The notes below the pieces were generated by a model that worked only from the letters and a program-made list of their open reading frames with translations, was not told where the DNA came from and searched no databases. 24,905 nt of DNA from the IMG/VR virus record IMGVR_UViG_3300018426_003176, positions 1 through 24,905 of that record; one strand, written 5' to 3'. Numbering within the stretch: the stretch's first letter is position 1; each line of letters begins with the position of its first letter. Positions 2,022-24,905 of this stretch are shown here, piece by piece. Source of the stretch: a virus. A program made the translations under genes and the position numbers.

Positions 2022-3535
2022 TGATTGAATCACTCGTTTCGCTCCCACTGTATTTGCAGTGGGGTATCATTATTGCAGCAGGAGTATTATATGGATCTCT
2101 TATTGGTCTAATACCTTCTGCTGGTCCAGCAAAAGCATTAATACTACTCTTTGGATTGGTTCAATTATTTGATATTCCTGGAGCAGAATACTTATTTGTA
2201 TTATTTGCAATTGCAGTAATGGTATCGTGTTCTATTGGCGATTCATTTGCTTCGGTACTCATTGGCATCCCAGGAGCTGATGGAACCGCAGCGACAATGG
2301 TAGATGGTTTCCCTCTCGCGAAACAAGGTAAAGCATCATACGCATTGTCAGCAGCAATAACCACTTCTACACTTGGTGGATTATTGTTTGGAGTTGTTGG
2401 ATTCTCTTTGTTTCCAATGTACAATCTGATTAGTGATTATATAAGTGTACCAGAAATATTTGGTATGATTGTTTTATCCTTCTCACTTATTACTCTTATT
2501 ACTACTCGCTATGCAATACGTTGTTTAATTGCATTAGCATTTGGTTTGTTTGTAGGATTAATTGGTTATGATATGTACTCGACTCCAAGATGGACTGGTG
2601 GATGGGAATATCTAGTTGATGGCGTATCAATAGTTATTGTCACCGCCGGTTTATTTGCAATGCCAGAATTATTAGAAGTTCTAAGAAATAAAAATGAATA
2701 TTCTAAGATTGATAAGAAACATCATAATCAACAAACTTGGCAGGGCATTAAAGATACATTTAAACATGGGTGGATTGCATTTCAAGGTTCACTTATTGGT
2801 TTTATTGTAGGTGTATTACCCGGAACTGGTGGAGGAATAGGAGATTGGTCTGCATATACTGCAACAACTGCTATTTCTAAAAAAGAAAAAATTCCATTTG
2901 GTAAAGGTAATATTAAAGGTGTAATTGGCAGTGAGGGTGCAAATAATTCCGGTAAAGCTGGAGCACTTCTTCCTGCATTCTTATTTGGTATTCCAGGCAA
3001 TCGTGGTGTTGCAATTATTATGGCTCTTTTCATGTATGTAGGATTTGAAATGGGCACGGTTGCTTTAGTAGAAGATCAGCAATTTATAGATCATTTATAC
3101 TGGGGATACATGTTAGGTACTGCAATCGCTGGTATTGTACTCTTATTATTTGCAAGACAAGTATCAAAAATAGTTTATTTAAAACCAATCTATTGGGTTC
3201 CTATAATGGCAGGATTAACAATATGGTCTGTATTAGCGGCTAATTATTATGTAACTTGGTGGGAGGATTTAACATTACTCACATTCTTTAGTATACTTGG
3301 TTACTATATGAAGAAATATGAATTTAGTCGTCCGGCATTTTTAATTGCATATTTCTTAGCAGAGAGACTTGAAGGTTCATTCTTTCAAATACAACAACTA
3401 TATTTTATGGATGGAAACTACATAAATAATCCTATATGGAGTATGCATCCTATAATGACAGGTTGCTTAATATTCGCATTAATGATTCTAATTTATGGAA
3501 TTAAGAGAGATAAATCTCTTACAACATACTCATGA
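2021..3535 (+). CDS. tctA: Tripartite tricarboxylate transporter permease, TctA-like
   Basis: This 504-residue protein is strongly hydrophobic with about a dozen likely membrane segments and has the normal length for TctA, the large ion-coupled permease of TTT transporters in the inner membrane. It shows the two internal-repeat signatures of the family: GLIPSAGPAKALI near the N-terminus and G-V-L-P-G-T-G-G-G ending at residue 272. Other family-like parts are SFASVLIGIPG and the matching AFLFGIPGNRG segment in the second half. It overlaps the upstream binding-protein gene by one base and the downstream hydroxylase gene by ATGA. The small membrane partner TctB is not visible on either side. Likely host-derived cargo that would add carboxylate uptake during infection. 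Confidence 0.88.
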   Translation: MIESLVSLPLYLQWGIIIAAGVLYGSLIGLIPSAGPAKALILLFGLVQLFDIPGAEYLFVLFAIAVMVSCSIGDSFASVLIGIPGADGTAATMVDGFPLAKQGKASYALSAAITTSTLGGLLFGVVGFSLFPMYNLISDYISVPEIFGMIVLSFSLITLITTRYAIRCLIALAFGLFVGLIGYDMYSTPRWTGGWEYLVDGVSIVIVTAGLFAMPELLEVLRNKNEYSKIDKKHHNQQTWQGIKDTFKHGWIAFQGSLIGFIVGVLPGTGGGIGDWSAYTATTAISKKEKIPFGKGNIKGVIGSEGANNSGKAGALLPAFLFGIPGNRGVAIIMALFMYVGFEMGTVALVEDQQFIDHLYWGYMLGTAIAGIVLLLFARQVSKIVYLKPIYWVPIMAGLTIWSVLAANYYVTWWEDLTLLTFFSILGYYMKKYEFSRPAFLIAYFLAERLEGSFFQIQQLYFMDGNYINNPIWSMHPIMTGCLIFALMILIYGIKRDKSLTTYS

Positions 3536-5501: not shown

Positions 5502-5519
5502 TATTAAAGGAGAATGAAT

Positions 5520-6086
5520 ATGCACAATGTGGAAGGTCAACAAAGTAAACTTAAAGAGCTTACATGGGCTCATCATCAATCAGCAGAGCGAAGAGCTTTT
5601 GCAAAAGAACTTATTAGTGGCTCAATCGATACAGAAATCTATTATAAATTTTTACAATGCCAATTTTTAAATTATCAAGTATTAGAAAAACACTGTAAAA
5701 TTCCAGAACATCTTTACCCAATTCGTAGATCTGATCGTATCTTTCAAGATATTCGTGAGCTTGAATCAGAATACGGATTTTCACCAAACGGAAAGTTCCC
5801 ACCTTCAGTAGATCAATATGAAAGTTATATTAATGAAATAGCAAATGATAATGAGAGACTATTAGCACATATGTATGTGCGTCATTTTGGTGAATTGCAT
5901 GGTGGTCAAATTATCAAAAACAAAACTCCAGGTTCAGGTATGATGTACGAATTTAATGGAGATACAAAAGTCCTTATTTCAGAATTTAGAAAACTATTAA
6001 ATGATGATATGGCAGATGAAGCAAAAGTTTGTTTTGATTTCGCATCACAGCTTTTTGATGAAATGTCAGAAATGATGAAAAAATAG
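5520..6086 (+). CDS. ho1: Heme oxygenase
   Basis: Heme oxygenase opens the heme ring to give biliverdin IX-alpha, Fe2+ and CO, using electrons usually from ferredoxin in these organisms. The 188-residue helical protein shows the proximal heme-ligand region LTWAHHQSAE, with H19 as ligand candidate (H-x-x-A-E), and the distal-helix signature YVRHFGELHGGQII, which matches the family's YxRxxGDLxGGQ. Residue numbers are from the ATG at 5520. An ATG also occurs at 5514, but AGGAG at 5508-5512 is only one base from it and seven from 5520, so 5520 is preferred. With the bilin reductase at 7185 it forms a two-step bilin pathway. The gene ends directly at a promoter (6087-6115). Confidence 0.92.
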   Translation: MHNVEGQQSKLKELTWAHHQSAERRAFAKELISGSIDTEIYYKFLQCQFLNYQVLEKHCKIPEHLYPIRRSDRIFQDIRELESEYGFSPNGKFPPSVDQYESYINEIANDNERLLAHMYVRHFGELHGGQIIKNKTPGSGMMYEFNGDTKVLISEFRKLLNDDMADEAKVCFDFASQLFDEMSEMMKK

Positions 6087-12767: not shown

Positions 12768-13589
12768 ATGAAGGGTTTTAAAAAATATATCAATGAAACA
12801 GTTGGCGTGGGCGGTCTTGCGTATGAAGCAAAAGTACGTAAGTCTGTAATTCAAACTTTAAAAAACAGAGCGTTTTCAAAAGATAAACGTATTACTCTTA
12901 AACCAGACAATGCTGGTGGATTTGCTTCTAATGTAGTAGATATGTACCTTACTTTAGATGGTAAAGATGTTCCTGTAGAAATTAAAATGGATAAAGATGC
13001 TCAAATGGGCGGACCATCTGTTAAGATTAATAAAGGAAAACCATACGGACTTTCAAAAGCAGGTGAAGATCTTGAAGATGATGTACAAGAAATGATTATC
13101 AATGCTGTTAAGTCAAAAGAAAGACCTATCAGAAATTATATCAAGCAAATGAAAACGCTAGAGCCAATTGAGCTACATAAGCAAGCTGGCGTATACGAAG
13201 TTCCATTCAAAACAACAAAAGAAGCTTGGGCAATATTACAGAAAAAAGGTTTACTCAAACCTATCAATACTATAGTTAAATATAATACTAAATTTATTCA
13301 TGATTGGTATGCAAGAAAAAAATGTTATTATATTCAAATTGGTAAATTGGGTATGTTCTATTTACAAAAAAATCCATTAGGTTTAAAAATTCCACAACTT
13401 AAAGCAGATATAGAAATTTATGTTCGCTTGACTCGTTCTGGTTCTGGTGGAACTAAAGCATATCCAACACAAAGATCATCTCAAATCAGAGCAATTGCTA
13501 GTCTAAAAGTAAAAGGTGGTAAATCTCCATTATCTTTAGATAATCCAAAAGATGTAGAAGAAATATTTAATCAAATGATGAGCAAGTAA
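12768..13589 (+). CDS. PD-(D/E)XK nuclease-like protein with capsid-targeting-like N-terminus
   Basis: The 273-residue protein has a nuclease-like core: E20 in the first helix, D58 in SNVVDMYL, then 12 residues to E71-I-K73 (VEIK), which is the D...(D/E)xK pattern of PD-(D/E)XK nucleases. The remaining part is basic. Its N-terminus MKGFKKYINE follows the same pattern as the T4 internal protein III leader (MKTYQEFIAE as I recall it): M-K-x-aromatic-x-x-aromatic-I-x-E, ending in the gp21 protease motif I-x-E at residue 10. It is the first gene after a late promoter, with AAAGG seven bases from ATG. A packaged nuclease is therefore plausible, but neither packaging nor activity is shown. Confidence 0.6.
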   Translation: MKGFKKYINETVGVGGLAYEAKVRKSVIQTLKNRAFSKDKRITLKPDNAGGFASNVVDMYLTLDGKDVPVEIKMDKDAQMGGPSVKINKGKPYGLSKAGEDLEDDVQEMIINAVKSKERPIRNYIKQMKTLEPIELHKQAGVYEVPFKTTKEAWAILQKKGLLKPINTIVKYNTKFIHDWYARKKCYYIQIGKLGMFYLQKNPLGLKIPQLKADIEIYVRLTRSGSGGTKAYPTQRSSQIRAIASLKVKGGKSPLSLDNPKDVEEIFNQMMSK

Positions 13590-13590
13590 A

Positions 13591-14598
13591 ATGGCAACAT
13601 TTACTGCTATGAATTTTCCTCGCGAAGGCAATGAAGATTTTAATAGAGCAGGATATAGAACAGTATATGCTCCGTCATCAAATGCAAATACTTTTAAATA
13701 TGCAAAAGGATTTCCATTAGCACAAGATACATATTTGTATACTGATGATGGTCAGCCTATAAGAAAACTAAATAAAGGTTCTCATGTTCATTTCTTATAT
13801 CCTTCTAGATTAGTTCATAATTTAGATATAGGTATTTCTAGAAGAGGTACATATAGCGCCATTTCTACTAAAAGTCATAAAGGTAGAGTAGAAGGATATA
13901 TTTTAATTAGTCATGTAATTAAACCAGCCGGCGGAGCACAAAATAGAGTTGCTTCGGGTTCAGCCTCACAAAAAGCTGTTGCTGATGCAGTACAAAATAT
14001 AGCATTCAAACATGATTATGATTATAAATTTATTTCTATGGCTAGGCCGGGATCTAATGCGCCAGATTTAATATGTGAAGTCGATGGCCACAAAACTCAG
14101 TTTGAAATTAAAGGCGCCGGAAGTGATAATGCGCCTATTACATTTTTTGATAAATCGGTAAGTAGGATTAGAAAAACTCCAAAAATTATAGATGATATAT
14201 CAAAATTATTTGCTACTCATAATAAACTTAAATTAGTAAAAAAAGATTTTGTTAGTGTTATTGATTATTTTAGAGCAGAAAATAACGAGTTTGGGTTTCC
14301 TGGAGATGATGGAGCTCCAAAGTCCGGTAAAATACCACCATTTTTTACAACAACAAGTAGACCATTATTATTAAAATTACATAAGTTAATATTACGTCAT
14401 TTTGCTGAAGGTGGAGATAACTACTTTGTAATAAATAATAGAAGTAATAATACTTTTAAATTTTATTATACTGAATACGGGCAAAATATTTTGCATTTAA
14501 AAGATCTTCCAGAGTTTAGTTCTTTTTCATTAGCAACATATGGTGGAGCTTCTAGTGGATCTATGCGCGCAGGTTTAAAAATAAAATTAAGAGATTAA
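13591..14598 (+). CDS. Second PD-(D/E)XK nuclease-like protein
   Basis: The 335-residue protein contains P158-D159, then 12 residues to E172-I-K174 (FEIKG), a complete PD-(D/E)XK signature with the same D-to-E spacing as the gene before. The segment before it, SASQKAVADAVQNIA, fits the first helix, though without an obvious glutamate. The N-terminal 110 residues (FPLAQDTYLYTDDGQ, GSHVHFLYPSR, GRVEGYILISH) look like a separate beta-rich domain. There is no capsid-targeting-like leader. It starts one base after the previous stop. Substrate unknown; restriction-like, repair or packaging-related roles are all possible. Confidence 0.6.
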   Translation: MATFTAMNFPREGNEDFNRAGYRTVYAPSSNANTFKYAKGFPLAQDTYLYTDDGQPIRKLNKGSHVHFLYPSRLVHNLDIGISRRGTYSAISTKSHKGRVEGYILISHVIKPAGGAQNRVASGSASQKAVADAVQNIAFKHDYDYKFISMARPGSNAPDLICEVDGHKTQFEIKGAGSDNAPITFFDKSVSRIRKTPKIIDDISKLFATHNKLKLVKKDFVSVIDYFRAENNEFGFPGDDGAPKSGKIPPFFTTTSRPLLLKLHKLILRHFAEGGDNYFVINNRSNNTFKFYYTEYGQNILHLKDLPEFSSFSLATYGGASSGSMRAGLKIKLRD

Positions 14599-14640
14599 AA
14601 ACGTTGTACTTTTTAATAAAAATAGGTTATAATATAACTA

Positions 14641-15873
14641 ATGGTTAGAACATTTAAACAACATTTAACAGAAGATAAAAATGTACATATGGAACACCTC
14701 GAAGATTCTATACTGAATCTTGGTGTTGATGGTACACGCTCTGCAATTAATTTTTTGCGCAGTGTAAGAGATATGTTGGCAGGTAATGCTAAATCTGGTG
14801 TAAATGTAACAGTTAAATGGGATGGTGCTCCTGCAGTATTTGCTGGAACAGATCCTGAAGATGGTAAATTCTTTGTTGCGAAGAAATCAATTTTTAATAA
14901 AGTACCAAAAGTATATAAAACAAATGCTGATATAGATGCAGATACTGATGGTGATTTAAATGCTAAATTAAAACTTGCTTTAGCCGAGCTACCTAAACTT
15001 GGTATTAAAGGAGTTGTACAAGGTGATTTTTTATATGATAAAAAAGATATTAAAACGGTTAACATTATGGGAGTCCCGCATATTACTTTCCATCCTAATA
15101 CGATTGTTTACGCGGTACCTAAAGATAGTGACCTCGCGAAAGAAATCCTCGGATCCAAGATCGGAGTGGTATGGCACACAACATACACAGGAAACTCAAT
15201 TAAAGAACTGTCTGCTTCTTTTGGAAAAGAGATTGCAAGCGGTCTCAAAAAAACGAAAGGAGTCTGGTCAGTAGATGCTGTCTATAAAGATGTTTCTGGT
15301 AATGCTACAATGACTGGAAAAGAAACTGCTTTTGTTACTAAAAAGCTTTCAGAAGCTGGTATGTTATTTAGAAAAATTAAAAAAGAAACATTTAATGGTA
15401 TTTCAGATAATCCTGATACATTAATGAGAGTTAAAACTTTTATTAATACAAAAATTAGAGAAGGCCAACGAATTGGAAATACGAGAATATTTGTTAAGCA
15501 ATTACAGGACTATATAAATAATGTATATCAAAAAGATGCAGACAAAAAGAAAACAGAGAAGGGTAAGGCAAGTTCGTTTGCAAAACGTGATGCAACTTTG
15601 GAGTATTTCAAAAAAACACCCGCATCTCAGATAACAATGATGTTTGATTTGTATAATTTAATTATAGATATTAAACATATAATTATTAGTAAATTAGATA
15701 AAGCAAAGAGAATAGGAACGTTCTTAAGAACAGATAATGGTTATGAAGTAACAGAACAAGAAGGTTTTGTTGCAATCGATCACATGGGTAAAAACGCAGT
15801 TAAACTTGTTGATCGTCTTGGATTTAGTAGAGCTAATTTCTCAGACAAATATATTAAAGGTTGGCAAAAATAA
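14641..15873 (+). CDS. Ligase/nucleotidyltransferase-like protein (DUF6267-like) with capsid-targeting-like N-terminus
   Basis: The 410-residue product resembles a marine-phage family I recall as DUF6267. Residues 59-62 (KWDG in VTVKWDGAPAVFAG) match ligase motif I KxDG, where Lys takes the AMP. E374-G-F-V-A and K388-L-V match motifs IV and V in the style of T4 RNA ligase 1 (EGxVA, then K about 13 residues on). VVQGDFLY at 125-132 is a motif III candidate. Motifs I and IV are about 315 residues apart, far more than in Rnl1, so a large insertion must exist or the match is partly chance. The N-terminus MVRTFKQHLTE ends in L-x-E like a T4 capsid-targeting leader. No clear Shine-Dalgarno sequence is near the ATG. 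Confidence 0.6.
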   Translation: MVRTFKQHLTEDKNVHMEHLEDSILNLGVDGTRSAINFLRSVRDMLAGNAKSGVNVTVKWDGAPAVFAGTDPEDGKFFVAKKSIFNKVPKVYKTNADIDADTDGDLNAKLKLALAELPKLGIKGVVQGDFLYDKKDIKTVNIMGVPHITFHPNTIVYAVPKDSDLAKEILGSKIGVVWHTTYTGNSIKELSASFGKEIASGLKKTKGVWSVDAVYKDVSGNATMTGKETAFVTKKLSEAGMLFRKIKKETFNGISDNPDTLMRVKTFINTKIREGQRIGNTRIFVKQLQDYINNVYQKDADKKKTEKGKASSFAKRDATLEYFKKTPASQITMMFDLYNLIIDIKHIIISKLDKAKRIGTFLRTDNGYEVTEQEGFVAIDHMGKNAVKLVDRLGFSRANFSDKYIKGWQK

Positions 15874-16611
15874 ATGGCTCAATATTATCCAAGTGAAGAT
15901 TTACATCTAAATATAGCAAGAGGACTTGTTAAAGGTACTTCATTTATCCACAAGTTTGGTGCCGTTCCTGCTTTAAGTATTAATGTAACGGGGTCGGTTT
16001 GGGATATTAATGATACATTGTATCCTTGGGCAGCATTAGATACTCCTGCTGTTGTGAACGTTAAAAGAAATAACATAGCAGACGAAGGTCATACAGTTAC
16101 AGTTCAAGGCTTGGATTCTGATTATAATTTTCAAGAGGAAGAAATTGTAATTTCAGGTACTAACACTCTTAGTACTAAACTATTCCGTAGAGTAAACCGC
16201 GCATTTTGTACTGCAGGTGGGGAAACAAATACTGGCAATATTGATATTGAAGCAGGCGCAGCTGGCGGAACAATTGTTGCTCGTATTACTGCAGGTAAAG
16301 GTCAAACACTAATGGCTGTTTATACTGTTCCTGCAGGAAGTACGGCATATATTACACAAGGGGTTTCTTCAGTTCAAGGTGGCGGGCAAGCAACAGGTGA
16401 TATGATGATTCGCCAATTTGGTCAAGATACTTTCCGTGTTGGGCATAGTTTTGAAGTAACTTCAGATGGTGGAGCTTATTTCTATCCATTCAGTGTCCCT
16501 GTAGCAGTATCTGAAAAATCTGATATTGATGTTAGAGCAAAAGCTGCTGGTAATAATTCTCGTGTTACTTCAGCATTCGATATAATTTTAATTAAAAATG
16601 GACTTGGCTAA
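15874..16611 (+). CDS. Probable virion structural protein
   Basis: A 245-residue, beta-rich protein low in lysine clusters and rich in glycine, threonine and valine, with segments such as SINVTGSVWDINDTLYPW, HTVTVQGLDSDYNFQEEEI and AGKGQTLMAVYTVPAGSTAYI. This composition is typical of phage surface or decoration proteins, and I associate the N-terminal YYPSEDLHLNIARG pattern with structural proteins of marine phages. The last third (FRVGHSFEVTSDGGAYFYPFSVPVAV) looks like a receptor- or capsid-facing beta sandwich. The gene follows the ligase-like gene with no gap. Exact place in the virion cannot be told. Confidence 0.55.
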   Translation: MAQYYPSEDLHLNIARGLVKGTSFIHKFGAVPALSINVTGSVWDINDTLYPWAALDTPAVVNVKRNNIADEGHTVTVQGLDSDYNFQEEEIVISGTNTLSTKLFRRVNRAFCTAGGETNTGNIDIEAGAAGGTIVARITAGKGQTLMAVYTVPAGSTAYITQGVSSVQGGGQATGDMMIRQFGQDTFRVGHSFEVTSDGGAYFYPFSVPVAVSEKSDIDVRAKAAGNNSRVTSAFDIILIKNGLG

Positions 16612-16614
16612 ACT

Positions 16615-16623
16615 CAATAAATA
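16615..16623 (+). promoter_or_regulatory. Possible degenerate late promoter
   Basis: CAATAAATA differs by one base from the late word TATAAATA and lies 30 bases before the methyltransferase start, a similar distance to the exact copies. It could start the sugar/sulfate cassette. The single mismatch in an AT-rich gap makes it weak. Confidence 0.3.
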
Positions 16624-16653
16624 AAAAATATATTTTGTAAATGGAGAAATATT

Positions 16654-17214
16654 ATGGGTATAATTCGTGACCGTGGTAATGATGGTGGCAATATTTGGAG
16701 ATGGGACACTCTCATCAGATTCATTAAAGAAAACAATTATAAAACAGGCGCTGAACTTGGAGTGCACGATGGTGTAAGCTTCAAAAATATGGTAAAACGT
16801 TGTCCTGAATGTAATTTAGTTGGTGTTGATTTATATGAATCACAACCAGAAAATAATGGTCCAGAAAAATGGACACCAGGCGAAAATGGACATGCTTGGG
16901 ATCATAAACGTTATTACACAGATTTATTAAACTTTTGTCATAATCATGATAACGCTGTTATTATTAAAGATTATACAACAAATGTCGCAGAACAATATCC
17001 AGACGGTCATTTCGATTTTGTATTTATTGATGCTGATCATGGATATGAAGGTTGCTTAAGAGACATTAAAGCTTGGCACCCTAAAGTCCGTGAAGGCGGT
17101 AGAGTTATTGGTCATGATATTCACTTTCCTACAGTACAAAAAGCTGTTACAGAATTTTACGGAGAAAACTCTTGGAACACCGAAGATGATTTCATTTGGT
17201 GGATTCAAAAATAA
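16654..17214 (+). CDS. Class I SAM-dependent methyltransferase
   Basis: The 186-residue protein has motif I GAELGVHDG (residues 32-40), the acidic strand LVGVDLYE, and FDFVFIDADHGYEG, the strand and D-A-D-H pattern of the Methyltransf_24-like family found in sugar and antibiotic pathways. VREGGRVIGHDIHFP is the matching motif VI region. Acceptor unknown; together with the following glycosyltransferases and sulfotransferase, a sugar methylation in a glycan pathway is likely. GGAG at 16643-16646 precedes the ATG. Its stop overlaps the next start (TAATG). Confidence 0.75.
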   Translation: MGIIRDRGNDGGNIWRWDTLIRFIKENNYKTGAELGVHDGVSFKNMVKRCPECNLVGVDLYESQPENNGPEKWTPGENGHAWDHKRYYTDLLNFCHNHDNAVIIKDYTTNVAEQYPDGHFDFVFIDADHGYEGCLRDIKAWHPKVREGGRVIGHDIHFPTVQKAVTEFYGENSWNTEDDFIWWIQK

Positions 17215-17858
17215 TGATTGAAAAGAAACTTTCACAAATTTGGATTGGTCCAAAGCCTGCTCCATTAAAATGGATGTATACTTGGAGAGATAAACATCCA
17301 GGCTGGGAGTATTCTATTTTTACTGATGAAATGTTAAAATCTCGTAAGTGGCATAATCAACATTTAATAGAACATTATTATAATACTGCAAAATGGCCTG
17401 GCGTTTCCGATTTAATTCGTTATGAATTATTGTATGAACGGGGTGGATTTTGGCCTGAAGCAGATATGGAATGTTTAAATGACACTACAGAATTATTTGT
17501 AGCACCTGACGATCATGCATATACATGTTATGAAAATGAAAAAGGTAGAGAAAACTTTGTACAACCAATTATGGCTGCTAATCCAGAAAATCAATTTGTT
17601 AAACATATAATTGATACACTTCATAAATTAAAACCACAAGATCTTAAAGAACCTTGGATGTCAACAGGGAATGCATTTCTTGCAAATCATGTTGTTAATT
17701 GGAAAGATAAATTAACTATATGGCCTTCACATTGGTTCATCCCTTTATTTTATATTGGTGGAGCAAAGCGCTATGACGGACCTGATAAAGTGTATGCAGA
17801 CCACAAATGGGGGTCCACAGGCCATGCAAATAGTGTATCATATGATAGAGGAATATAA
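17214..17858 (+). CDS. Glycosyltransferase, GT32-like (DXD sugar-binding type)
   Basis: The 214-residue protein shows the Gly_transf_sug pattern: an N-terminal KLSQIWIGPKPAP, the SDLIRYELLYERGGFW segment (65-80) typical of 'aDi.RYeiLy.yGGiYlD.D', and the metal/nucleotide-sugar site as E82-A-D84 in place of D-x-D. It should move a sugar from a nucleotide donor to a glycan. I use ATG 17214, which overlaps the previous stop by one base and puts the first strand at the N-terminus; an in-frame ATG at 17196 would add only MVDSKI. Ends on a TAATG overlap with the sulfotransferase gene. Confidence 0.78.
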   Translation: MIEKKLSQIWIGPKPAPLKWMYTWRDKHPGWEYSIFTDEMLKSRKWHNQHLIEHYYNTAKWPGVSDLIRYELLYERGGFWPEADMECLNDTTELFVAPDDHAYTCYENEKGRENFVQPIMAANPENQFVKHIIDTLHKLKPQDLKEPWMSTGNAFLANHVVNWKDKLTIWPSHWFIPLFYIGGAKRYDGPDKVYADHKWGSTGHANSVSYDRGI

Positions 17859-18517
17859 TGTATATATCACACAAATATAAATTAATATTTTTAAGAACAC
17901 CTAAAACAGCAAGTAGTAGTTTATCAGAATTTTTTATTAAAAATATTCCTGATGATTACGCGATTTATACTCCAGTAGAAGATTCTAATATTCCTGGAAC
18001 GTTAAATCCAGATATTATTAATAAGTATAAAATTAATTTTAAATATTATCATTTTACATTAGAAGATTTAGTTAATAATGAAATTATAACAGAAGAACAA
18101 GCAAAAACATATAAATCATTTGCTGTTATAAGAGATCCAGTTGATAGACAAAAAAGCTTTTATTATTTCTATAAAAACTGGAAAGGTAGGCATTCACCTG
18201 CATCATTAGATGAATATAAAGCCTGGACTTCAAATGGTTCATTTATTGGAGAACCAAACTCTGCTATTAAACAAACAGATATTCTTTCTATAAACGAAGA
18301 AATTATTGGTAATTATTGGTTATATGAAAACATAAATGATGAATTAAATAATCTTATGAATGAATTACATTTGCCTGTTAAGTATCCATTAACTAATCAT
18401 AAAAATGGTTATAGAAAAAATAGAGATAATGAAATTGTATTTGATGATCAGTCTATGAGTGATTTAAGAAATGCATTTACTAAAGACTTTGAAATATATG
18501 AAAGCTTACATTCTTAA
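17858..18517 (+). CDS. Sulfotransferase
   Basis: The 219-residue protein has a convincing PAPS-binding loop: FLRTPKTASSS, with P15-K-T-A-S-S-S21, and a 3'-phosphate site VIRDPVDRQKSFYYFY with R92 and S100. This is the layout of carbohydrate sulfotransferases of the Sulfotransfer_2 type. Placed between two glycosyltransferases, it most likely sulfates a sugar on phage or host surface glycan, using PAPS made by the host. The ATG overlaps the stop of the GT32 gene; the 3' end overlaps the GT25 gene by 20 bases. Confidence 0.78.
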   Translation: MYISHKYKLIFLRTPKTASSSLSEFFIKNIPDDYAIYTPVEDSNIPGTLNPDIINKYKINFKYYHFTLEDLVNNEIITEEQAKTYKSFAVIRDPVDRQKSFYYFYKNWKGRHSPASLDEYKAWTSNGSFIGEPNSAIKQTDILSINEEIIGNYWLYENINDELNNLMNELHLPVKYPLTNHKNGYRKNRDNEIVFDDQSMSDLRNAFTKDFEIYESLHS

Positions 18518-19181
18518 AATTGATACACCTATTTCAAATGAGTATGCTAAAACATGTGCAGACTCTTGTGATAAAGTAGGATTAAACTGGGAATATTTTA
18601 ATGGATACCAAAATATGACCGGTGCTGCAGCATGGGGATTAACAGGTATTAAAACTCAATTTAATGAAGCTTATCGTTATATAGAAAATCCAAATGCTGC
18701 TCAAAAAGCAAATGCTTGTAGTGCTGGACATGCCGCAATATGGAAAAAAATTGCAGAAGGTCCAGATGATATTGGTATTGTATTAGAACATGATGCAATA
18801 ATGCTTCAACCAATAACTATTCCTATTCCTGAAAATATGATTGTAACTCTTGGTTATAAAATGCCAGATATAGAAAGATATGATCATGTTGCAGCAGGCC
18901 TTCCTACTGAAATTATTCCTATTCGTGGTCATGAAGGTGCGCATGCATATGCAATGACTAAAAATACTGCGCAGTTTCTTGTAAACGAAATAGAAGCAAG
19001 AGGTGTTATGAGTGCAGTTGATAATGCTTATTTTATTATGGGACAAAGAAGTACTAGAGTTCCATTAGGAATAATGTCACCTACGCCTGCAATTGGTTGG
19101 TTAAGAGAATCAACAATCTGGGGTGGATCAGCATATAGAAACTATAATTTTATACCTTCCTTTCAGGAAAATTATAAATAA
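18498..19181 (+). CDS. Glycosyltransferase, GT25-like (LPS glycosyltransferase type)
   Basis: The 227-residue product begins MKAYILKIDTPISNEYAKTC, the short first strand and arginine/lysine-poor helix seen in GT25 LPS glycosyltransferases ('..vinL.rs..R...'). KANACSAGHAAIWKKIAEG corresponds to the family's 'gevGCalSHi.iw..i', and IGIVLEHDAI to 'i.iLEDDa.', with E-x-D as the metal site. HEGAHAYAMTKNTAQFLV matches 'g..aYliSr.gA..ll'. I use ATG 18498 so that the first strand is N-terminal; the ATG at 18471 would add nine residues. The last codons contain the late promoter word at 19173. Confidence 0.72.
   Translation: MKAYILKIDTPISNEYAKTCADSCDKVGLNWEYFNGYQNMTGAAAWGLTGIKTQFNEAYRYIENPNAAQKANACSAGHAAIWKKIAEGPDDIGIVLEHDAIMLQPITIPIPENMIVTLGYKMPDIERYDHVAAGLPTEIIPIRGHEGAHAYAMTKNTAQFLVNEIEARGVMSAVDNAYFIMGQRSTRVPLGIMSPTPAIGWLRESTIWGGSAYRNYNFIPSFQENYK
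19173..19180 (+). promoter_or_regulatory. T4-type late promoter, TATAAATA
   Basis: Exact late -10 word overlapping the stop of the GT25 gene, 35 bases before the start of the 1151-residue gene at 19216. Confidence 0.75.
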
Positions 19182-19215
19182 CAGTAACTAACAATAATTA
19201 TTTTAGGATTTTATC

Positions 19216-22200
19216 ATGGCAGACAAGCCAAAAAAGGGTAAAAAGAGTTTTAAGTCTTTTAACCCAAAGAACATTATTGACGTAAAACCAACACTTGATG
19301 AAGCTGTAAAGAAAACGGCTGTAATTAGTTTTGGTAGAATGAATCCAATTACTATTGGTCATGAAAAGTTAGTAGGAAAAGTTACTACAGAAGCTAGAAT
19401 GAGAAAAGGAACTCCTATGATTTTCTTAACTCATTCAGAAGATGCTAAGAAAAATCCTTTATCATATAATGATAAAATTAAATTTGCTCAAAAAGCATTT
19501 GGTAAAATTGTAGTAAAATCTCCAGCAAGAACAATTATCGAAGTTACTAAATATTTAACTGGTAAATATAGTAATCTAGTAATGGTTGTTGGTTCTGACA
19601 GAATTAAAGAATTTGAATCTCTATTAAACAAATATAATAATAAAGAGTTTAAATTCGACAATATAGAAGTAGTATCATCTGGCGATAGAGATCCAGATGC
19701 AGAAGGCGTAACTGGCATGTCAGGTACTAAGATGAGAGAATTGGCATCTAAAAACGACATTACTGCATTTACTAAAGGCCTTCCTAATAGATTAAAACCC
19801 AATGCTAAACAAGTATTATTAGCAGTAAGAAAAGGTATGAATATGTCAGAAGAAAATATAGTAGAAGAGCAAGAATTAGACGAAGCTTTAAGTAGAATGG
19901 CTCGTCGTAAACGTTCAATCGCTGCAAGGAGAGCACGTTTTAGAATGAAGCGTGGTAGAGAAAGAGCGAAAAAGAGAGTTGCTTCTTTAGATGTACTTAA
20001 AAGACGTGCTCGTAAAGCTGCTATTAAATTTTTTAAGAAAAGATTTACTAAAGGTAGAAATTATAATACAATGTCTGCTGGAGAAAAAGAAATCATTGAT
20101 AAGAGAGTAGAAAAGATTAGTAAAAAACGTTTAGACCAAATCGCTCGTAAACTTCTTCCGAAGATTAAGAGAAAAGAATTAGATAGACGTAAAGCTATGA
20201 TGGCACGCCAAACTAAAAATGAAGAAGTACATTTAGAAGAAGCTTCAAAAGCTGATACTAGAGTTCGTAAGCGCCCACACATGATGATGGATTCAAAAGG
20301 AGCTGTTAAATTTGATGGACGTTTTAAAATTTATAAGAAAAAAACAGTTAATGAATCAGTTGAAGATGAAGTAGTAGATTTAATGGAATCTACAGAAGCT
20401 TTTGCCAATTCAGTATCACCAGAGCAAATTGATGAGTTATCAAAAGAAAAATTAGCGGGATATGAAAAGAAAGCTAGAACTTCTGCCATAGTTAATGCTC
20501 TTAAGTTTGGTAAAAAAGCTCATGATAAGTATAAGAAAAGAGAAGCTGGTTTAAAGAAAGCATCAAAGAAAACTGGTACTCAATATTCAAATGCTTGGAG
20601 GCATGAATCTAATGCTAGTGGCGAAAAAAATCTAGAATTAGATAGAGAAAGAGCTGCAAAAGCAAAATTAAAGCCTAATGATCGTGCTAAAATAGATGCG
20701 ATCAAATCTATGATGAAACACGCAAATGAAGAAACACAAATTGATGAATTATCAAATGATCTTTTACAAAGATATGATGATGCTAAAGAGAAAAAACATA
20801 GACAACCTGATGGTTCAACGAAATATAAAAGTGTACATCAATCATTGAAACGTACTGTTGGTGGTATTCGTTCTTTAAAAAGACAAGCAGGTTTTAAAGC
20901 ACCTACTAATAAAGTTTCAAGAGCAGATCACTTTGCTGCATACGGTAAAGATGGACATAAAGTTGTAGCAAAACATAATAAAAAAGTAGCAAGAGAATCA
21001 GTTGAATATGATTTAAACGAAGATGCAAAAGTTATTGCTCACTTAGTTAAAAAAGGTTTAAATCCTAAAGATGCTGCAGCTTCTACAAAGAAACATTTAC
21101 CTTATGTTAAAAAAGCATACGGTAACCTTTCACCTGCTCAAGCTGCCGCAAAAGTCAGTATGGCAAGAGCAAATGAAGAAAAACAAATCGACGAATTATC
21201 AAAAGATACATTAAAATCATATCGAAAAAAAGCTGATAAATCAGCAGTTGATAGTTTAACAAGTAATGATCCTAAGCAAAAATTAAAATACGGGAAAAGA
21301 TTAACTGGTATGGGTAGAGCAACTAAAAGATTGAATAAAGAAGAAAAACAAATTGATGAATTATCAAAAGATACTCTTATGAAATACTCTGATGCTGCTT
21401 CTAAAGATCTTATGAAAGCAGTACATGGTGATAAAACTTCTAACATCTATAAAGTTAATAAAACCTCAAAATCTGGTAAACCATTAACAGTCCAAGGTAT
21501 TAGACGTAGACAAAACAAAAAATTTGATAGAAGAACATCACAATCAGGTGATGCATATCGAAAAGCACAAGCAATGGAAAGTGTCGAGCAAATTGATGAA
21601 TTATCAAAAGATACACTTGGTAGTTATATTGGAAAAGCAACTGATGATAAAAAAGCTTGGAAAGATACTAGAAAAGCTTTTGCAAAAAAAGGTTATAAAG
21701 ATCATGGATTTGAAAACTCAAAAATAGCAAAAAGAAATACGGGTATTAAGAAAGCAGCATCAAGATTGACTAAAGAAGATACACAATTTGATGAATCAAT
21801 ACATCACGATATAGATCATTCAGATCCAGATTTTAAACGTCTATTGAAAAAACACAATGTTACTCATAGTGTAGTTAAGAGAGGTCCACAATCTGGTGAT
21901 AGTATTAAATTACATGGTGATAAAAAGAATGTTCAACATGTTTCAAAGGTATTAAGAAACCCAGAACAGCATCAAAATGAAGCATGGTCTCCATTAAGTA
22001 AAGGCACTCAAGATCATATTGCTGATGTTCAACAAAAGAGAGCAAATGATCTTAAGAAATTAAGAGATGCAAAAAGAGCTAAGAATCCTACTTTCATGGA
22101 TAAGTTTAAAAAAGGATTTAAGAAAGAAGATACAGAACAATTAGATGAATTAAATCCTTCAACATTAGGAAGATATAGTCGTGCAGCTGCAAGAGATGTG

Positions 22201-22671
22201 GGTATTACTAGTGATCATAAAAGAATTAAAAAGCGTCTAAAAGGTATCGATAATGCTACTCATAAGCTTGCTATGAAAGCAATTAGAGGTGGCGTAAGAG
22301 AATCGAAAGTACCTTTTGATCCTCCATATAAAAAGGTTAAAAGCGGTACTACTATAGATAAATCAGGTGCTAAACATACTCCAATGTCTAAAGCTCGTCA
22401 TTTAGCTCAAATGGCTATTAAACAAGCAATGGATAAAAAGCAGAAAAAAGAAGATGTAAACGAAGCTACTTGGAGTGTTGATGTTGCGGGCATGCCTAAA
22501 TTTTATGTCGATGGTAAATCACAAGGTGATGTCAAAAAAGAACTACGCAAATTAATCAAATCCGATAAAATTAAAGAAATTATAGTTAAAAGAGTTCAGC
22601 CGATCGAGGTTAGAAAAGATTTTAGACAAAGATCTCAAGATCCATCTGGTAAAGCAGAAACAGAAGAATGA
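19216..22671 (+). CDS. Nucleotidyltransferase-headed repeat protein, candidate prohead-protease polyprotein
   Basis: At 1151 residues this is the largest gene here. Residues about 33-205 form an HIGH-type nucleotidyltransferase domain: FGRMNPITIGH (T46-I-G-H49), MVVGSDRIKEF, and GMSGTKMR (168-174) for the ISGxxxR motif. From residue 216 on it is very Lys/Arg-rich and divided by repeats of E-(K/T)-Q-I-D-E-L-S-K-D-T-L. Motifs L/I-x-E before likely segment borders end at residues 29, 223, 342, 407, 511, 602, 660, 715, 795 and 978; degenerate copies end at 860, 922 and 1083. T4 gp21 protease cuts after such motifs, so the protein may be cut into an enzyme and a series of basic peptides inside the head. 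A late promoter precedes it. Nucleotidyltransferase call is firm; cleavage is inferred. Confidence 0.75.
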   Translation: MADKPKKGKKSFKSFNPKNIIDVKPTLDEAVKKTAVISFGRMNPITIGHEKLVGKVTTEARMRKGTPMIFLTHSEDAKKNPLSYNDKIKFAQKAFGKIVVKSPARTIIEVTKYLTGKYSNLVMVVGSDRIKEFESLLNKYNNKEFKFDNIEVVSSGDRDPDAEGVTGMSGTKMRELASKNDITAFTKGLPNRLKPNAKQVLLAVRKGMNMSEENIVEEQELDEALSRMARRKRSIAARRARFRMKRGRERAKKRVASLDVLKRRARKAAIKFFKKRFTKGRNYNTMSAGEKEIIDKRVEKISKKRLDQIARKLLPKIKRKELDRRKAMMARQTKNEEVHLEEASKADTRVRKRPHMMMDSKGAVKFDGRFKIYKKKTVNESVEDEVVDLMESTEAFANSVSPEQIDELSKEKLAGYEKKARTSAIVNALKFGKKAHDKYKKREAGLKKASKKTGTQYSNAWRHESNASGEKNLELDRERAAKAKLKPNDRAKIDAIKSMMKHANEETQIDELSNDLLQRYDDAKEKKHRQPDGSTKYKSVHQSLKRTVGGIRSLKRQAGFKAPTNKVSRADHFAAYGKDGHKVVAKHNKKVARESVEYDLNEDAKVIAHLVKKGLNPKDAAASTKKHLPYVKKAYGNLSPAQAAAKVSMARANEEKQIDELSKDTLKSYRKKADKSAVDSLTSNDPKQKLKYGKRLTGMGRATKRLNKEEKQIDELSKDTLMKYSDAASKDLMKAVHGDKTSNIYKVNKTSKSGKPLTVQGIRRRQNKKFDRRTSQSGDAYRKAQAMESVEQIDELSKDTLGSYIGKATDDKKAWKDTRKAFAKKGYKDHGFENSKIAKRNTGIKKAASRLTKEDTQFDESIHHDIDHSDPDFKRLLKKHNVTHSVVKRGPQSGDSIKLHGDKKNVQHVSKVLRNPEQHQNEAWSPLSKGTQDHIADVQQKRANDLKKLRDAKRAKNPTFMDKFKKGFKKEDTEQLDELNPSTLGRYSRAAARDVGITSDHKRIKKRLKGIDNATHKLAMKAIRGGVRESKVPFDPPYKKVKSGTTIDKSGAKHTPMSKARHLAQMAIKQAMDKKQKKEDVNEATWSVDVAGMPKFYVDGKSQGDVKKELRKLIKSDKIKEIIVKRVQPIEVRKDFRQRSQDPSGKAETEE
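20425..22155 (+). repeat. Dispersed in-gene repeats encoding Q-(I/L)-D-E-L-(S/N)
   Basis: Six copies of the unit, with I or L codons starting at 20428, 20740, 21187, 21352, 21592 and 22141, followed by a related 45-80 residue helical segment with pattern L-S-x-D-T-L-x-x-Y-x-x-K-A and later a basic G-I/M-x-x-A-x-x-L end. DNA similarity is high only around the motif (for example AAATTGATGAATTATCAAAA), so copies have diverged by selection on the protein. Spacing is irregular. Confidence 0.8.
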
Positions 22672-23801
22672 TTTCTTTTAAAAAACACCACGGCGAAACC
22701 TTAGAGGAAGGTGTTAACGATCCTGCTATTTTTAAAGTAGTCTTTACGGCGGGAGGTCCAGGTAGTGGTAAGTCATTTACTGCTCATATGGCTGGTCTTG
22801 TTCCATTAGGTTTTAAAGTAATTAATATTGATCCAGCATTTGAAAAAATGATGAAAGATGCCGGTTTAGATACTTCTAAACCAAACGAAGTTTTTTCAGA
22901 TAAAGGTCAACAAATCCGTAAACTTGCAAATAATGTTGTAGGTACTCAAAAGAAACTTGCTTTAGAAGGCCGTCTTGGTCTTTTAATCGATGGTACTGGT
23001 AAAGATTATAATAAAATTAAAAGTCAAGTAGTAGCATTTAGAAGAATGGGTTATGAATGCGCTATGATCTTTGTTAATACTGATCTTGAAACAGCAATCA
23101 ATAGAGATATAGAACGAGGTAAAGGACCTGGTGGCCGTACACTTGGAAAACCAATGGTAAGTAAAATGTGGAAAGATGTGCAAAAGAACATCGGTAAATT
23201 CCAAAACTTATTTAAAGGCCAAATGTATATTGTTGATAATAATGAAGGAACAGATATTAGACAAGCCACATTACCAGTATATAGAAAGATTTCTGCTTGG
23301 GCTAAAAAAGAACCTCGCATGCCACAAGCAAAAGCTTGGATTACTGCAGCAAGAATGAAAAAAGAAGAGCATGGAGCAGGTGATAGAGGGACAGACGAAT
23401 TAGTAAGTAATTTTAAAGCAGATACTCCAGGTGAAAACGGTAAAAAAGTAAAAATTACTAAACCTTCTACAAATGACGAATTATTACAAGAAGGTATTGC
23501 AAAAGACTTGCTCAAAGATATTGCAAAGATTGCAATAGGTAAAAAACGTTTCCATGATTTAAAACGCATGGTTAATAAAGACAAATATAAATTTGCTGTT
23601 ACTCAATATAGAAAAATGAAAAAAGATGTTAGAAGTTCTGGTGGACCAGAAAAATGGATTAATAAACATGGATTGGGTAGAGGTGCAAGATTAATGCCAG
23701 GTATGTTAGATAATTATTTAAAAAATACTGCAGCAGATTTAGCAGGCATTACTCCAAAAGAGTTCAATGCGGTTTTAAATAGAAACACAAGATATAAGTA
23801 A
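22668..23801 (+). CDS. P-loop kinase-like protein (zeta-toxin/polynucleotide-kinase type) with capsid-targeting-like N-terminus
   Basis: The 377-residue protein has Walker A G29-G-P-G-S-G-K-S36, a VINIDPAFEKMMK segment after the second strand, LLIDGTGKDYNKIK as the Walker B-like strand, and a lid-like region DIERGKGPGGRTLGKPMV. This is the layout of zeta-toxin and polynucleotide-kinase-type phosphotransferases. The N-terminus MISFKKHHGETLEE ends in L-x-E at residue 14 like a capsid-targeting leader. A second L-Q-E at 273-275 separates the kinase from a basic C-terminal domain of about 100 residues. The start overlaps the stop of the 1151-residue gene (ATGA), so the two are translated together. 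Substrate unknown. Confidence 0.7.
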   Translation: MISFKKHHGETLEEGVNDPAIFKVVFTAGGPGSGKSFTAHMAGLVPLGFKVINIDPAFEKMMKDAGLDTSKPNEVFSDKGQQIRKLANNVVGTQKKLALEGRLGLLIDGTGKDYNKIKSQVVAFRRMGYECAMIFVNTDLETAINRDIERGKGPGGRTLGKPMVSKMWKDVQKNIGKFQNLFKGQMYIVDNNEGTDIRQATLPVYRKISAWAKKEPRMPQAKAWITAARMKKEEHGAGDRGTDELVSNFKADTPGENGKKVKITKPSTNDELLQEGIAKDLLKDIAKIAIGKKRFHDLKRMVNKDKYKFAVTQYRKMKKDVRSSGGPEKWINKHGLGRGARLMPGMLDNYLKNTAADLAGITPKEFNAVLNRNTRYK

Positions 23802-23809
23802 TATAAATA
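23802..23809 (+). promoter_or_regulatory. T4-type late promoter, TATAAATA
   Basis: Exact late -10 word directly after the stop of the kinase-like gene, 28 bases before the start at 23838; AAAGGG at 23826-23831 is the ribosome site. Confidence 0.75.
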
Positions 23810-23837
23810 TATCAAAACAATATTCAAAGGGTTAAAA

Positions 23838-24905
23838 ATGAAATCATTTAACAGTTTTAAAGAAGCTATGGATCCGGTTAATAAAGCGGCTCTTAAAAAG
23901 AAACATAAAGAGCGTAAAGACCAAGATATTAATAATGACGGTAAAGTTAACGATACTGACAAATATTTACATAACCGCCGTCAAGCAGTAACACAACAAA
24001 TAGGTGAAAAATTAAAAGCTTCTGATGATATGGGTAAGTGGATTGATGATTTCCAAGACTCTGATGCACCTCAATTTAAAGGTAAGTCCAAAGAAAAGAA
24101 ACGCCAAATGGCTATTGCAGCTAAGCTAGATGCAGAAAAAAATGAAAGTTATAAGTCATATGCTCAACAAAAAGCAGTATGGGCATCTCGTAAAGATGGT
24201 GGTAAAGGACATCCTGATAATAAAAAGAAAAATGAATCAAACGTTGAAGAAGCTAAGAAAATGAAAGGCGAAGATCCTTGTTGGGATAGTCATGAAATGG
24301 TGGGCATGAAAGATAAGAATGGTAAGAAAGTTCCGAACTGTGTACCAAAAAATGAATCAGCAGAAAACAGAGTTGACGTAATTAGAGCAGTAGCTCAAAA
24401 AATTGCTATGGAAAAAGAAGCAAAAAGAAAAGCGGCTGAGAAAAAAGCAGAAGCTGATGCTAAAAAAGCAATGGCTAATGAATCAAAAGATCCAAATAGA
24501 TATGATGATGGTCCAGGTGTAGATCCAAATAGATATGATGATGGTCCAGGCGTAACACCTAAAAAGAAAAAGACTATAAAAGAACTATCAAATAAAACAC
24601 AGAGCGAAGGATATACAGGTGGTCCTCATGATGCTGATTGGGTTAATAAATCTGAAAAGTTAGAAAGAGCTAGAAATAGAGCTAAGAGAATGGGTGATCA
24701 TAAAAAACACGCAGAACTAGATGCTCAAATTAAACAACACTATAAGCGCGGACCAGGTGTGCGTGAAGCAGTAGATCCACAGGATAAAGGTGAGTATGAT
24801 GATGAGGGTGGTATGGCACAAACTCAAATCAATAAAATCATGGATGCTGCAAAAGAATTAAAAGGTATAATCGGTAAAGACGATAATCTACCTGAGTGGG
24901 TGCAA
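23838..24905 (+). CDS. EF-hand-containing basic protein, probable head-associated (3' end beyond window)
   Basis: 356 residues are visible without a stop. The N-terminus MKSFNSFKEA resembles the leaders of the neighbouring proteins, with F-x-E in place of I/L-x-E. Residues 30-41 form a complete dockerin-like calcium loop (D30-x-N32-x-D34-G-x-V-x-x-x-D41). Residues 145-170 hold a two-cysteine module (EDPCWD...KKVPNCVP; C148, C168). A Lys/Ala/Glu-rich coiled stretch follows (about 185-215), then an 11-residue tandem repeat, and I247-K-E-L-S, which matches the I-D-E-L-S motif of the 1151-residue protein. The last visible residues LPEWVQ fit a C-terminal domain I recall in marine phage structural proteins. 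A virion or prohead-core role is likely but unproven. Confidence 0.65.
   Translation, partial: MKSFNSFKEAMDPVNKAALKKKHKERKDQDINNDGKVNDTDKYLHNRRQAVTQQIGEKLKASDDMGKWIDDFQDSDAPQFKGKSKEKKRQMAIAAKLDAEKNESYKSYAQQKAVWASRKDGGKGHPDNKKKNESNVEEAKKMKGEDPCWDSHEMVGMKDKNGKKVPNCVPKNESAENRVDVIRAVAQKIAMEKEAKRKAAEKKAEADAKKAMANESKDPNRYDDGPGVDPNRYDDGPGVTPKKKKTIKELSNKTQSEGYTGGPHDADWVNKSEKLERARNRAKRMGDHKKHAELDAQIKQHYKRGPGVREAVDPQDKGEYDDEGGMAQTQINKIMDAAKELKGIIGKDDNLPEWVQ
24489..24554 (+). repeat. 33-base tandem duplication
   Basis: Two adjacent 33-base units (24489-24521 and 24522-24554) differ at one base (GGT versus GGC) and encode D-P-N-R-Y-D-D-G-P-G-V twice. The near identity points to a recent in-frame slippage duplication in the EF-hand protein gene. 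Confidence 0.9.

Follow-up and report, generated by a model that had tools for sequence, protein, structure and literature searches.

Capsid-targeting-like leaders on enzymes of a marine T4-like phage suggest a payload packaged in the head

One gene cluster for a nuclease-like protein, an RNA-ligase-like protein, a nucleotidyltransferase and a P-loop kinase is contained in the window, as we call positions 1 to 24,905 of IMG/VR virus record IMGVR_UViG_3300018426_003176, a fragment (24.9 kb) from a marine T4-like phage. Many homologues of all four enzyme families carry, immediately before the domain, a leader of about ten residues (M-x-x-F-x-x-F/Y-I/L-x-E) that resembles the capsid-targeting sequence (CTS) of T4 internal proteins. 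The best explanation, which we hold with a probability of about 0.72, is that the enzymes are packaged in the phage head and that the leader is removed. A sequence-only reading of the window had proposed such a payload. Its packaging part is well supported by the conservation of the leader on unrelated domains, by leader-bearing enzymes reported by mass spectrometry (MS) in the virions of three related cyanophages, and by a motif at the junctions of fused proteins; no published test was found of whether these proteins lose their leader or enter the host, and both steps are argued by analogy with T4.

Leaders in the window and across its relatives

Residues 4 and 7 of the T4 CTS matter for targeting and residues 8 and 10 for processing, and gp21 cleaves after L/I-x-E, as described in the sections of a T4 review available to us (PMC9026906). 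T4 IPII and IPIII start with MKTYQEFIAE and match our leader pattern, IPI does not, and the pattern is found in 0 of the 21 other complete coding sequences (CDS) of the T4 stretch that was scanned. The five N-termini singled out in the sequence-only reading are all present at the positions it gave. Their profile p-values, listed here, are relative to 6737 internal-methionine controls; the training set of the profile was the leaders of homologous ligases:

12768..12797, + strand: CTS-like leader MKGFKKYINE (F4, Y7, I8, E10), p=0.0024, with support from homologues
14641..14673, + strand: CTS-like leader MVRTFKQHLTE, p=0.0001 (a value favoured by the use of this family for training), E11 conserved in at least 90% of 52 aligned proteins
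19216..19302, + strand: long leader-like segment of a 1151-residue protein, not canonical (SFKSF at residues 11-15, LDE at 27-29), p=0.69
22668..22709, + strand: leader-like MISFKKHHGETLEE before GVNDP, p=0.05, from sequence and homologue comparison
23838..24905, + strand: start of a 612-residue open reading frame (ORF) that runs off the window, MKSFNSFKEA (aromatics at 4 and 7, no I/L at 8), p=0.03

Two leaders are therefore clear on their own, two are weak and the 1151-residue protein lacks a canonical one, so that the description of these N-termini as T4-like leaders is partly confirmed. The T4-type arrangement (aromatics at 4 and 7, I/L at 8, E at 10) is present exactly at 12768; the 14641 leader is one residue longer, with H in place of the second aromatic, 22668 and 23838 agree in part, and 19216 does not agree. 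Four of the five end in I/L-x-E, much as had been noticed (INE, LTE, LEE and LDE), the exception being FKE at 23838. Homologues lend the weak cases more credibility: the kinase family includes forms such as MLSFKTYLEE directly followed by GVNDP, and relatives of the 1151-residue protein retain FKEF...L(D/E)E.

Across IMG/VR relatives the leaders vary in their letters and keep a frame (M, 1-4 residues, F or else L/Y, a position that is polar in most cases, any residue, F/Y/H, I/L/V, any residue, E), and the conserved domain begins at once after the Glu. Examples include MLSFKNYLAE and MKKFDKYIVE on ligases, MIGSFKQYLVE and MKNFSDYIVE on nucleotidyltransferases, MLSFKTYLEE and MQRLTSYLEE on kinases, and MINLKQWLDE and MQRFVDFVNE on nucleases; in some family members the leader is missing or diverged. 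The comparison of N-termini across homologues suggested at the outset thus found the leader kept on unrelated domains, with domains that differ from phage to phage. Further leader-bearing proteins comprise a HAD protein resembling the phage polynucleotide-kinase family (phrog_415, E-value 3.9e-10), nuclease-like proteins, families of unassigned function, and a DnaJ-domain protein (E-value 2.5e-8); many of the leader-bearing clusters are single sequences, and some will be due to chance. At one locus, L021:6520-7515 and L021:7634-8146 encode the leader-bearing DnaJ-domain protein beside a leader-bearing protein that looks ADP-ribosyltransferase-like by eye and has no Pfam or PHROG match.

As a measure of background, 7 out of 7687 internal methionines fit the strict leader pattern. 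We contrasted this background with 1932 distinct ORFs of at least 80 residues from the sampled loci, among which 57 families have six or more members: 44 of the 57 families contain not a single strict leader, and strict leaders reach 89% in ligases (n=99), 88% in the HAD family (n=8), 60-75% in three further families (n=8-10) and 33% in the nuclease family (n=12). Nucleotidyltransferases have no clean family fraction, because they fall with polyproteins and kinases into a single cluster of 364 (21% strict leaders). Among the 1833 ORFs outside the ligase family, the ligase-trained profile gives 144 a score beyond the 99.9% background mark, against an expectation of 3.3. Because loci were sampled mostly via homology to leader-bearing queries, the overall match rate is biased upward and is not a genome-wide rate; the family contrast and the S-CREM2 proteome described below are fairer tests. 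A looser pattern, run on eight records with 0 to 4.8 matches expected and 1 to 11 seen, is in clear excess in some genomes (C48C1, 11 vs 2.6; G008, 9 vs 1.4; G002, 7 vs 2.0; G004, 5 vs 1.5; G009, 4 vs 0.0) and in little excess in others (G007, 6 vs 4.8; G003, 4 vs 3.0); part of HTVC008M gave 1 vs 0.0. The leaders are real, belong to protein families, and at the family level lie far above chance.

Published virion proteomes and inner cleavage motifs

Virion proteins of cyanophage S-CREM2 were taken, with coordinates, from the MS list of PMC10665884, and the leader pattern was fixed before the genome was examined. It occurs in 6 of 219 CDS, and four of the six are MS-detected virion proteins: gp6, a SAM hydrolase (MKDFDSFLEE); gp13 (MKDLHSFLTE); gp14, an APH-like kinase (MKRFDAFLTE); and gp154, a cytidylyltransferase (MKNFSSFLTE). 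The other two, gp37 and gp175, are outside the virion list. Non-structural virion proteins are thus enriched (4/28, vs 2/167 non-virion proteins; Fisher p=0.004), and structural ones have none (0/24). The ligase-trained profile ranks gp154, gp6, gp13, gp175 and gp14 as its top five, four of them virion proteins. The virion-detected Cas9-like nuclease gp12 (L203:7704-10313) carries PLRFASFMAE at residues 16-25, outside the pattern. The main text of PMC10665884 contains none of the terms "capsid targeting", "propeptide", "leader", "gp21" and "targeting sequence".

Two more cyanophages have a homologous enzyme in their reported virion proteins: a putative cytidylyltransferase, T4-GC190, in S-SM1 (according to the consulted part of PMC3037559) and the NMNAT ORF91 in S-SCSM1 (likewise PMC9602691). 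The three MS-detected NMNATs start with MKKFSAFLNE (S-SM1), MKNFSSFLTE (S-CREM2) and MKSFLQFLKE (S-SCSM1), with F4, F7, L8 and E10 in all three. S-SCSM1 genes 89-93, five consecutive genes after gp41/mazG, are all virion-labelled; gene 90 belongs to a family (E-value 6.9e-28) whose genes sit immediately upstream of the ligase gene in related loci, among them L133, L086, L096 and L097, and the 612-residue ORF at 23838 has a segment in common with virion-labelled SSCSM1_92 (E-value 2.7e-6). For the phage of the window, or for its ligase and kinase families, our search found no published MS, and no phiM12 virion proteome was among the best-ranked literature matches listed.

The 1151-residue protein of the window continues beyond its leader-like segment as follows:

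19303..19884, + strand: nucleotidyltransferase (NMNAT/cytidyltransferase-like), ending in QELDE; phrog_3041 E-value 2.2e-60, phrog_395 E-value 3.7e-39
19885..20241, + strand: very basic domain, net +32, from the sequence; a separate leader-bearing gene in phage C48C1
20242..22671, + strand: basic repeats split mostly by Q-I/L-D-E-L, putative gp21 sites, from the sequence

C48C1 encodes the basic domain separately, behind the leader MLSFKQFVSE, which is followed by V. Among 12 distinct cases in which the kinase domain is fused 51-901 residues inside a longer ORF, [ILVM]xE stands directly before G-V/I-N/H-D in all 12 (I/L in 11), and the reversed motif in one. For the fused basic domain, [ILVM]xE lies at most 8 residues upstream in 40 of 44 cases (I/L in 30), and the reversed motif in 11 of 44. 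Fused and separate forms thus agree on the position of the predicted cut. Common descent could keep junction residues, but at the kinase junctions P3 and P1 are constant and P2 and P4 variable. The window's 1151-residue protein contains 15 I/L-x-E, vs 7.7 by shuffling (p 0.0095), and if it were cut at I/L-D/N/E-E, 10 of its 11 pieces would be basic (net +4 to +32) and one would be at -1.

Raw counting of I/L-x-E was rejected as evidence since the reversed motif is about as common across 17 polyproteins, and for this reason junction positions were used instead. A junction test for the RGVAAW domain was not used, since it could draw on just two fusions; each of these carries the motif (p 0.056).

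A prohead protease (PF03420) is encoded in 10 of 13 related records; a 41-kb IMG/VR contig nearly identical to the window, itself a fragment like the window, has no match. The major head protein gp23 carries LxE at residues 52-72, a putative cut site, in the relatives C48C1, G002, G003, G004, G007, G008 and S-CREM2.

Enzymes behind the leaders and their genomic setting

The domains that follow the leaders at 12768, 14641 and 22668, and a protein between the first two, are:

12798..13589, + strand: nuclease-like domain, putative PD-(D/E)xK; D58, E71 and K73 invariant in a 15-sequence alignment
13591..14598, + strand: second nuclease-like protein (by reading of the sequence), leaderless; no Pfam or PHROG match
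14674..15873, + strand: DUF6267 (PF19782), a covalent-nucleotidyltransferase/RNA-ligase-like domain, from Pfam, alignment and model
22710..23801, + strand: P-loop kinase, Zeta_toxin PF06414 / AAA_33 PF13671 over cut-off

The protein at 14641-15873 belongs to DUF6267 (E-value 4.1e-112), a family for which our literature search found no paper; by tblastn it is matched in 464 of the 50,697 phage records searched. K59, D61 and G62 (K59-W-D61-G62), E374, G375 and K388 are invariant in 52 of 52 aligned sequences, and KxDG is motif I of covalent nucleotidyltransferases and RNA ligases. The model (pLDDT 86.6) aligns best in VIA-align with RNA ligases (Z 7.9, root-mean-square deviation 3.9, 187 aligned), namely Naegleria ligase, RNA editing ligase, Trl1 and T4 Rnl2 (Z 7.1), and next with DNA ligases; among the VIA-align matches listed, 49 of the best 50 are RNA or DNA ligases, where a Z below 8 may reflect a common arrangement. 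Foldseek returned no significant match (best E-value 0.21, a DNA ligase), nor did the DUF6267 profile find a sequence match among solved structures. We speak of an RNA-ligase-like protein because Z is below 8 and Foldseek is not significant: of the earlier ligase call, the ligase-like part stands through the invariant KxDG, and its best fold match stays below the safe level.

What had been called a nuclease at 12768 is so named from the invariant D...ExK pattern (D58, E71 and K73 in 15 of 15 aligned proteins), and the name is kept as putative. Its domain has no Pfam match, and a fold search with its model (pLDDT 67.6) gave no significant match. The leader is at the same place in 11 of the 15 proteins, two with a shifted Glu. 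In the family of the second nuclease-like protein, two of three distinct N-termini show a leader that runs straight into the shared start of the protein (YLTE before VATFSAKNFP, WLNE before VATFSPKNFP). In the ligase and the nuclease model alike, confidence is lowest over the first ten residues (mean pLDDT 33 and 27).

The kinase call was borne out by Pfam profile scores over the curated cut-offs (37.9 vs 22.3 bits for Zeta_toxin, 34 vs 27 bits for AAA_33). The kinase also matches phage polynucleotide kinase weakly (phrog_505, E-value 1.4e-7) and, among solved structures, has weak adenylate kinase matches only. The nucleotidyltransferase call likewise holds through the PHROG cytidyltransferase match; Pfam and solved structures gave no match. 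The sequence contains GRMNPITIGHE, in agreement with GxxNPxTxGHE, the motif of NMNAT/cytidyltransferase-like nucleotidyltransferases.

Upstream of the cluster lie relatives of the genes for single-stranded-DNA-binding protein, UvsX and replicative helicase/primase (S-CREM2 gp200, gp43 and gp44). The order uvsX, gp41, ligase-like gene, nucleotidyltransferase gene, with other genes between, recurs in Pelagibacter phage HTVC008M and Synechococcus phage S-SM1. One neighbour of the ligase gene is related to a virion protein:

15874..16611, + strand: homologous to the S-CREM2 virion protein gp176 (detected by MS), without leader (hidden Markov model E-value 2.2e-68; Table 3 of PMC10665884)

A methyltransferase, two glycosyltransferases and a sulfotransferase, all without leader, occupy 16654-19181 between the ligase and the nucleotidyltransferase. 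The near-identical contig differs from the window's last 12,859 bases by 11 mismatches, extends past the window and supplied the 612-residue length of the 23838 ORF. It also encodes a 90-residue acidic protein, MSLEKIVAE..., at L206:15363-15635 (27409-27681 in the window's frame), which may be a component of the prohead core comparable to T4 gp67/gp68. Elsewhere the window encodes a TctA family permease, a phage-borne tricarboxylate transporter component (2021-3535; PF01970, E-value 2.2e-84), preceded by a gene with a signal-peptide-like start and no Pfam match (978-2021), and a heme oxygenase (5514-6086; PF01126, E-value 2.1e-19).

A proposed packaged payload, its alternatives and known systems

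We propose that the cluster after the UvsX and gp41 genes encodes capsid cargo. The short N-terminal leader on each enzyme, or on the first part of a longer protein, would bind the prohead core through the aromatics at 4 and 7, and a gp21-type prohead protease would remove it after I/L-x-E (residues 8-10). The long nucleotidyltransferase protein would probably also be cut at its repeated inner I/L-D-E into the enzyme and basic pieces. Once mature, the enzymes would stay beside the DNA inside the head and probably pass into the host together with it: since they share a T4-type address label, they are probably deliverable in this way, and by analogy with T4 we consider host entry somewhat more likely than not. 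There, the RNA-ligase-like enzyme, the P-loop kinase, the nuclease-like protein and the NMNAT-like enzyme may repair cleaved RNA and restore nicotinamide adenine dinucleotide (NAD) ahead of all phage gene expression, joined in related phages by the HAD protein of the phage polynucleotide-kinase family.

Several observations weigh against this proposal. Two of the five window leaders are weak (kinase 22668, and 23838) and one is absent (1151-residue protein), and leader removal is argued by analogy with T4, no published measurement having been found. Four of the 15 aligned nuclease proteins have no leader, and two carry MKSLKLFLEG with the Glu shifted. In S-SCSM1, scanned over the first 124 of 228.8 kb on the + strand, the pre-set pattern matches three ORFs, none virion-labelled; among 31 virion-labelled CDS only the NMNAT has a leader and 30 do not, including genes 89, 90, 92 and 93. 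That NMNAT leader fits only the strict pattern widened by L at one position and was missed by both earlier patterns, and the S-SM1 NMNAT leader scores only p=0.015. The cytidylyltransferase was not detected in S-PM2 virions, according to the consulted part of PMC3037559, and among 14 S-CREM1 virion proteins, in the available part of the source, no NMNAT or cytidylyltransferase is named. Raw I/L-x-E number 211 in the 17 polyproteins, vs 201 reversed motifs. The DUF6267 proteins of S-CREM2 (gp87) and S-SM1 (gene 189) lack the leader, so the enzyme can do without one; gp87 is also missing from the S-CREM2 virion list (PMC10665884), a single absence that may mean low abundance and that is consistent with leader-dependent packaging. 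Finally, the authors of PMC9602691 allow, in the portion consulted, that virion proteomes may include carry-over.

A first alternative explains virion detection by such carry-over; it takes the leaders for an N-terminal motif that arose by chance or convergence, and confines the action of the enzymes to the infected cell. The looser pattern by itself does give chance matches, as the small excess in G007 and G003 illustrates, and the three S-SCSM1 matches are not virion-labelled; but the profile excess (144 vs 3.3), the bimodal families, the enrichment in S-CREM2 virions and the NMNAT leaders in three phages make this account very improbable. A second alternative accepts packaging and cutting and assigns the proteins to head assembly, as core or, through basic fragments, in DNA condensation, without injection of active enzyme. 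The 10 basic pieces out of 11 predicted from the 1151-residue protein would suit such a role, and in T4, too, core proteins are cleaved, with most of the resulting fragments lost from the head (PMC9026906, sections available). Yet mere filler would not need conserved catalytic residues (KxDG in 52 of 52 proteins, a kinase over its Pfam cut-offs), and domains swap between phages while the leader persists; we judge this alternative unlikely.

As to the job of a packaged payload, RNA healing and sealing fit the ligase-like protein, the kinase and the HAD protein, and NAD restoration fits the NMNAT-like enzyme; both may hold. That RNA repair is the main job is a tentative suggestion, somewhat on the doubtful side. 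The payload may instead be mainly a NAD-restoring or nucleotide-metabolism kit, since its best-documented virion member is NMNAT-like and NAD regulation is proposed in the consulted parts of PMC9602691 and PMC10665884; against this, the companion ligase model aligns first with RNA ligases, the kinase has a weak match to phage polynucleotide kinase, and the HAD family a match to the phrog_415 polynucleotide kinase, so we regard it as possible rather than probable. On a wider view, evenly poised in our judgement, marine T4-like phages have a general plug-in cargo system, in which an exchangeable ten-residue leader or an inner I/L-x-E site precedes many unrelated domains, long members are gp21-processed polyproteins, and an RNA-repair, NAD-repair and counter-defence kit is delivered before phage genes are read. 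The plug-in domains would be RNA-ligase-like, kinase, HAD, nuclease-like, NMNAT, SAM hydrolase and APH-like kinase, perhaps with a Cas9-like nuclease and a DnaJ domain.

A payload packaged by leader would provide a sequence rule for spotting what T4-like phages of marine bacteria carry in the capsid. It would also show how NMNAT and other virion-borne enzymes get into the head, for which the proteome reports state no mechanism in the parts of the literature consulted. Should the ligase, kinase and HAD proteins be delivered, RNA repair would be carried in the particle, ready at entry against tRNA-cutting or NAD-draining defences, and the leaders would be candidates for protein delivery by such phages. 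CTS cargo in T4 and virion NMNAT in cyanophages are already known; a search that excluded preprints and most subscription papers found in print neither a connection of the two nor such a range of enzyme cargo, nor cut sites inside the longer proteins. The only literature found that joins capsid targeting with cyanophages is PMC9026906, which in its available sections also suggests that the CTS is perhaps a general loading route of T4-like phages for various proteins.

The marine leaders resemble those of T4 IPI-III and Alt, which carry a gp21-cut CTS, in length, in residues 4, 7, 8 and 10, in the cleavage motif and in the related prohead protease of most related records, and they share with the T4 internal proteins, as far as the consulted sources describe these, a variable cargo behind a similar leader. 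Unlike T4 internal proteins, the marine cargo consists of nucleic-acid and nucleotide enzymes of about 220-1150 residues, and in the longer fused proteins the cut motif is retained where one domain meets the next. T4 Pnkp and the T4 RNA ligases provide kinase, HAD phosphatase and RNA ligase functions; in the marine phages such functions would sit on separate leader-bearing proteins. The virion NMNAT/cytidylyltransferases of S-SM1, S-CREM2 and S-SCSM1 are homologous to the window's nucleotidyltransferase, are reported in virions and bear a T4-CTS-like leader, and S-CBWM1 has a virion NMNAT as recounted in the part of PMC9602691 consulted; unlike the present reading, the cyanophage reports name no targeting leader in the parts available. 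By their published descriptions, DarB of P1 (PMC9024508, in part) is similar in its N-terminal packaging signal and phiKZ and SPN3US (PMC9026906, in part) in prohead-protease cutting of head proteins, with unrelated cargo in each case. Polyvalent proteins (PMC5512222, in part) are phage proteins that likewise combine several domains and for which packaging and injection are predicted; their likely processing is assigned to zincin-like peptidases, whereas the candidate site here is of the gp21 type.

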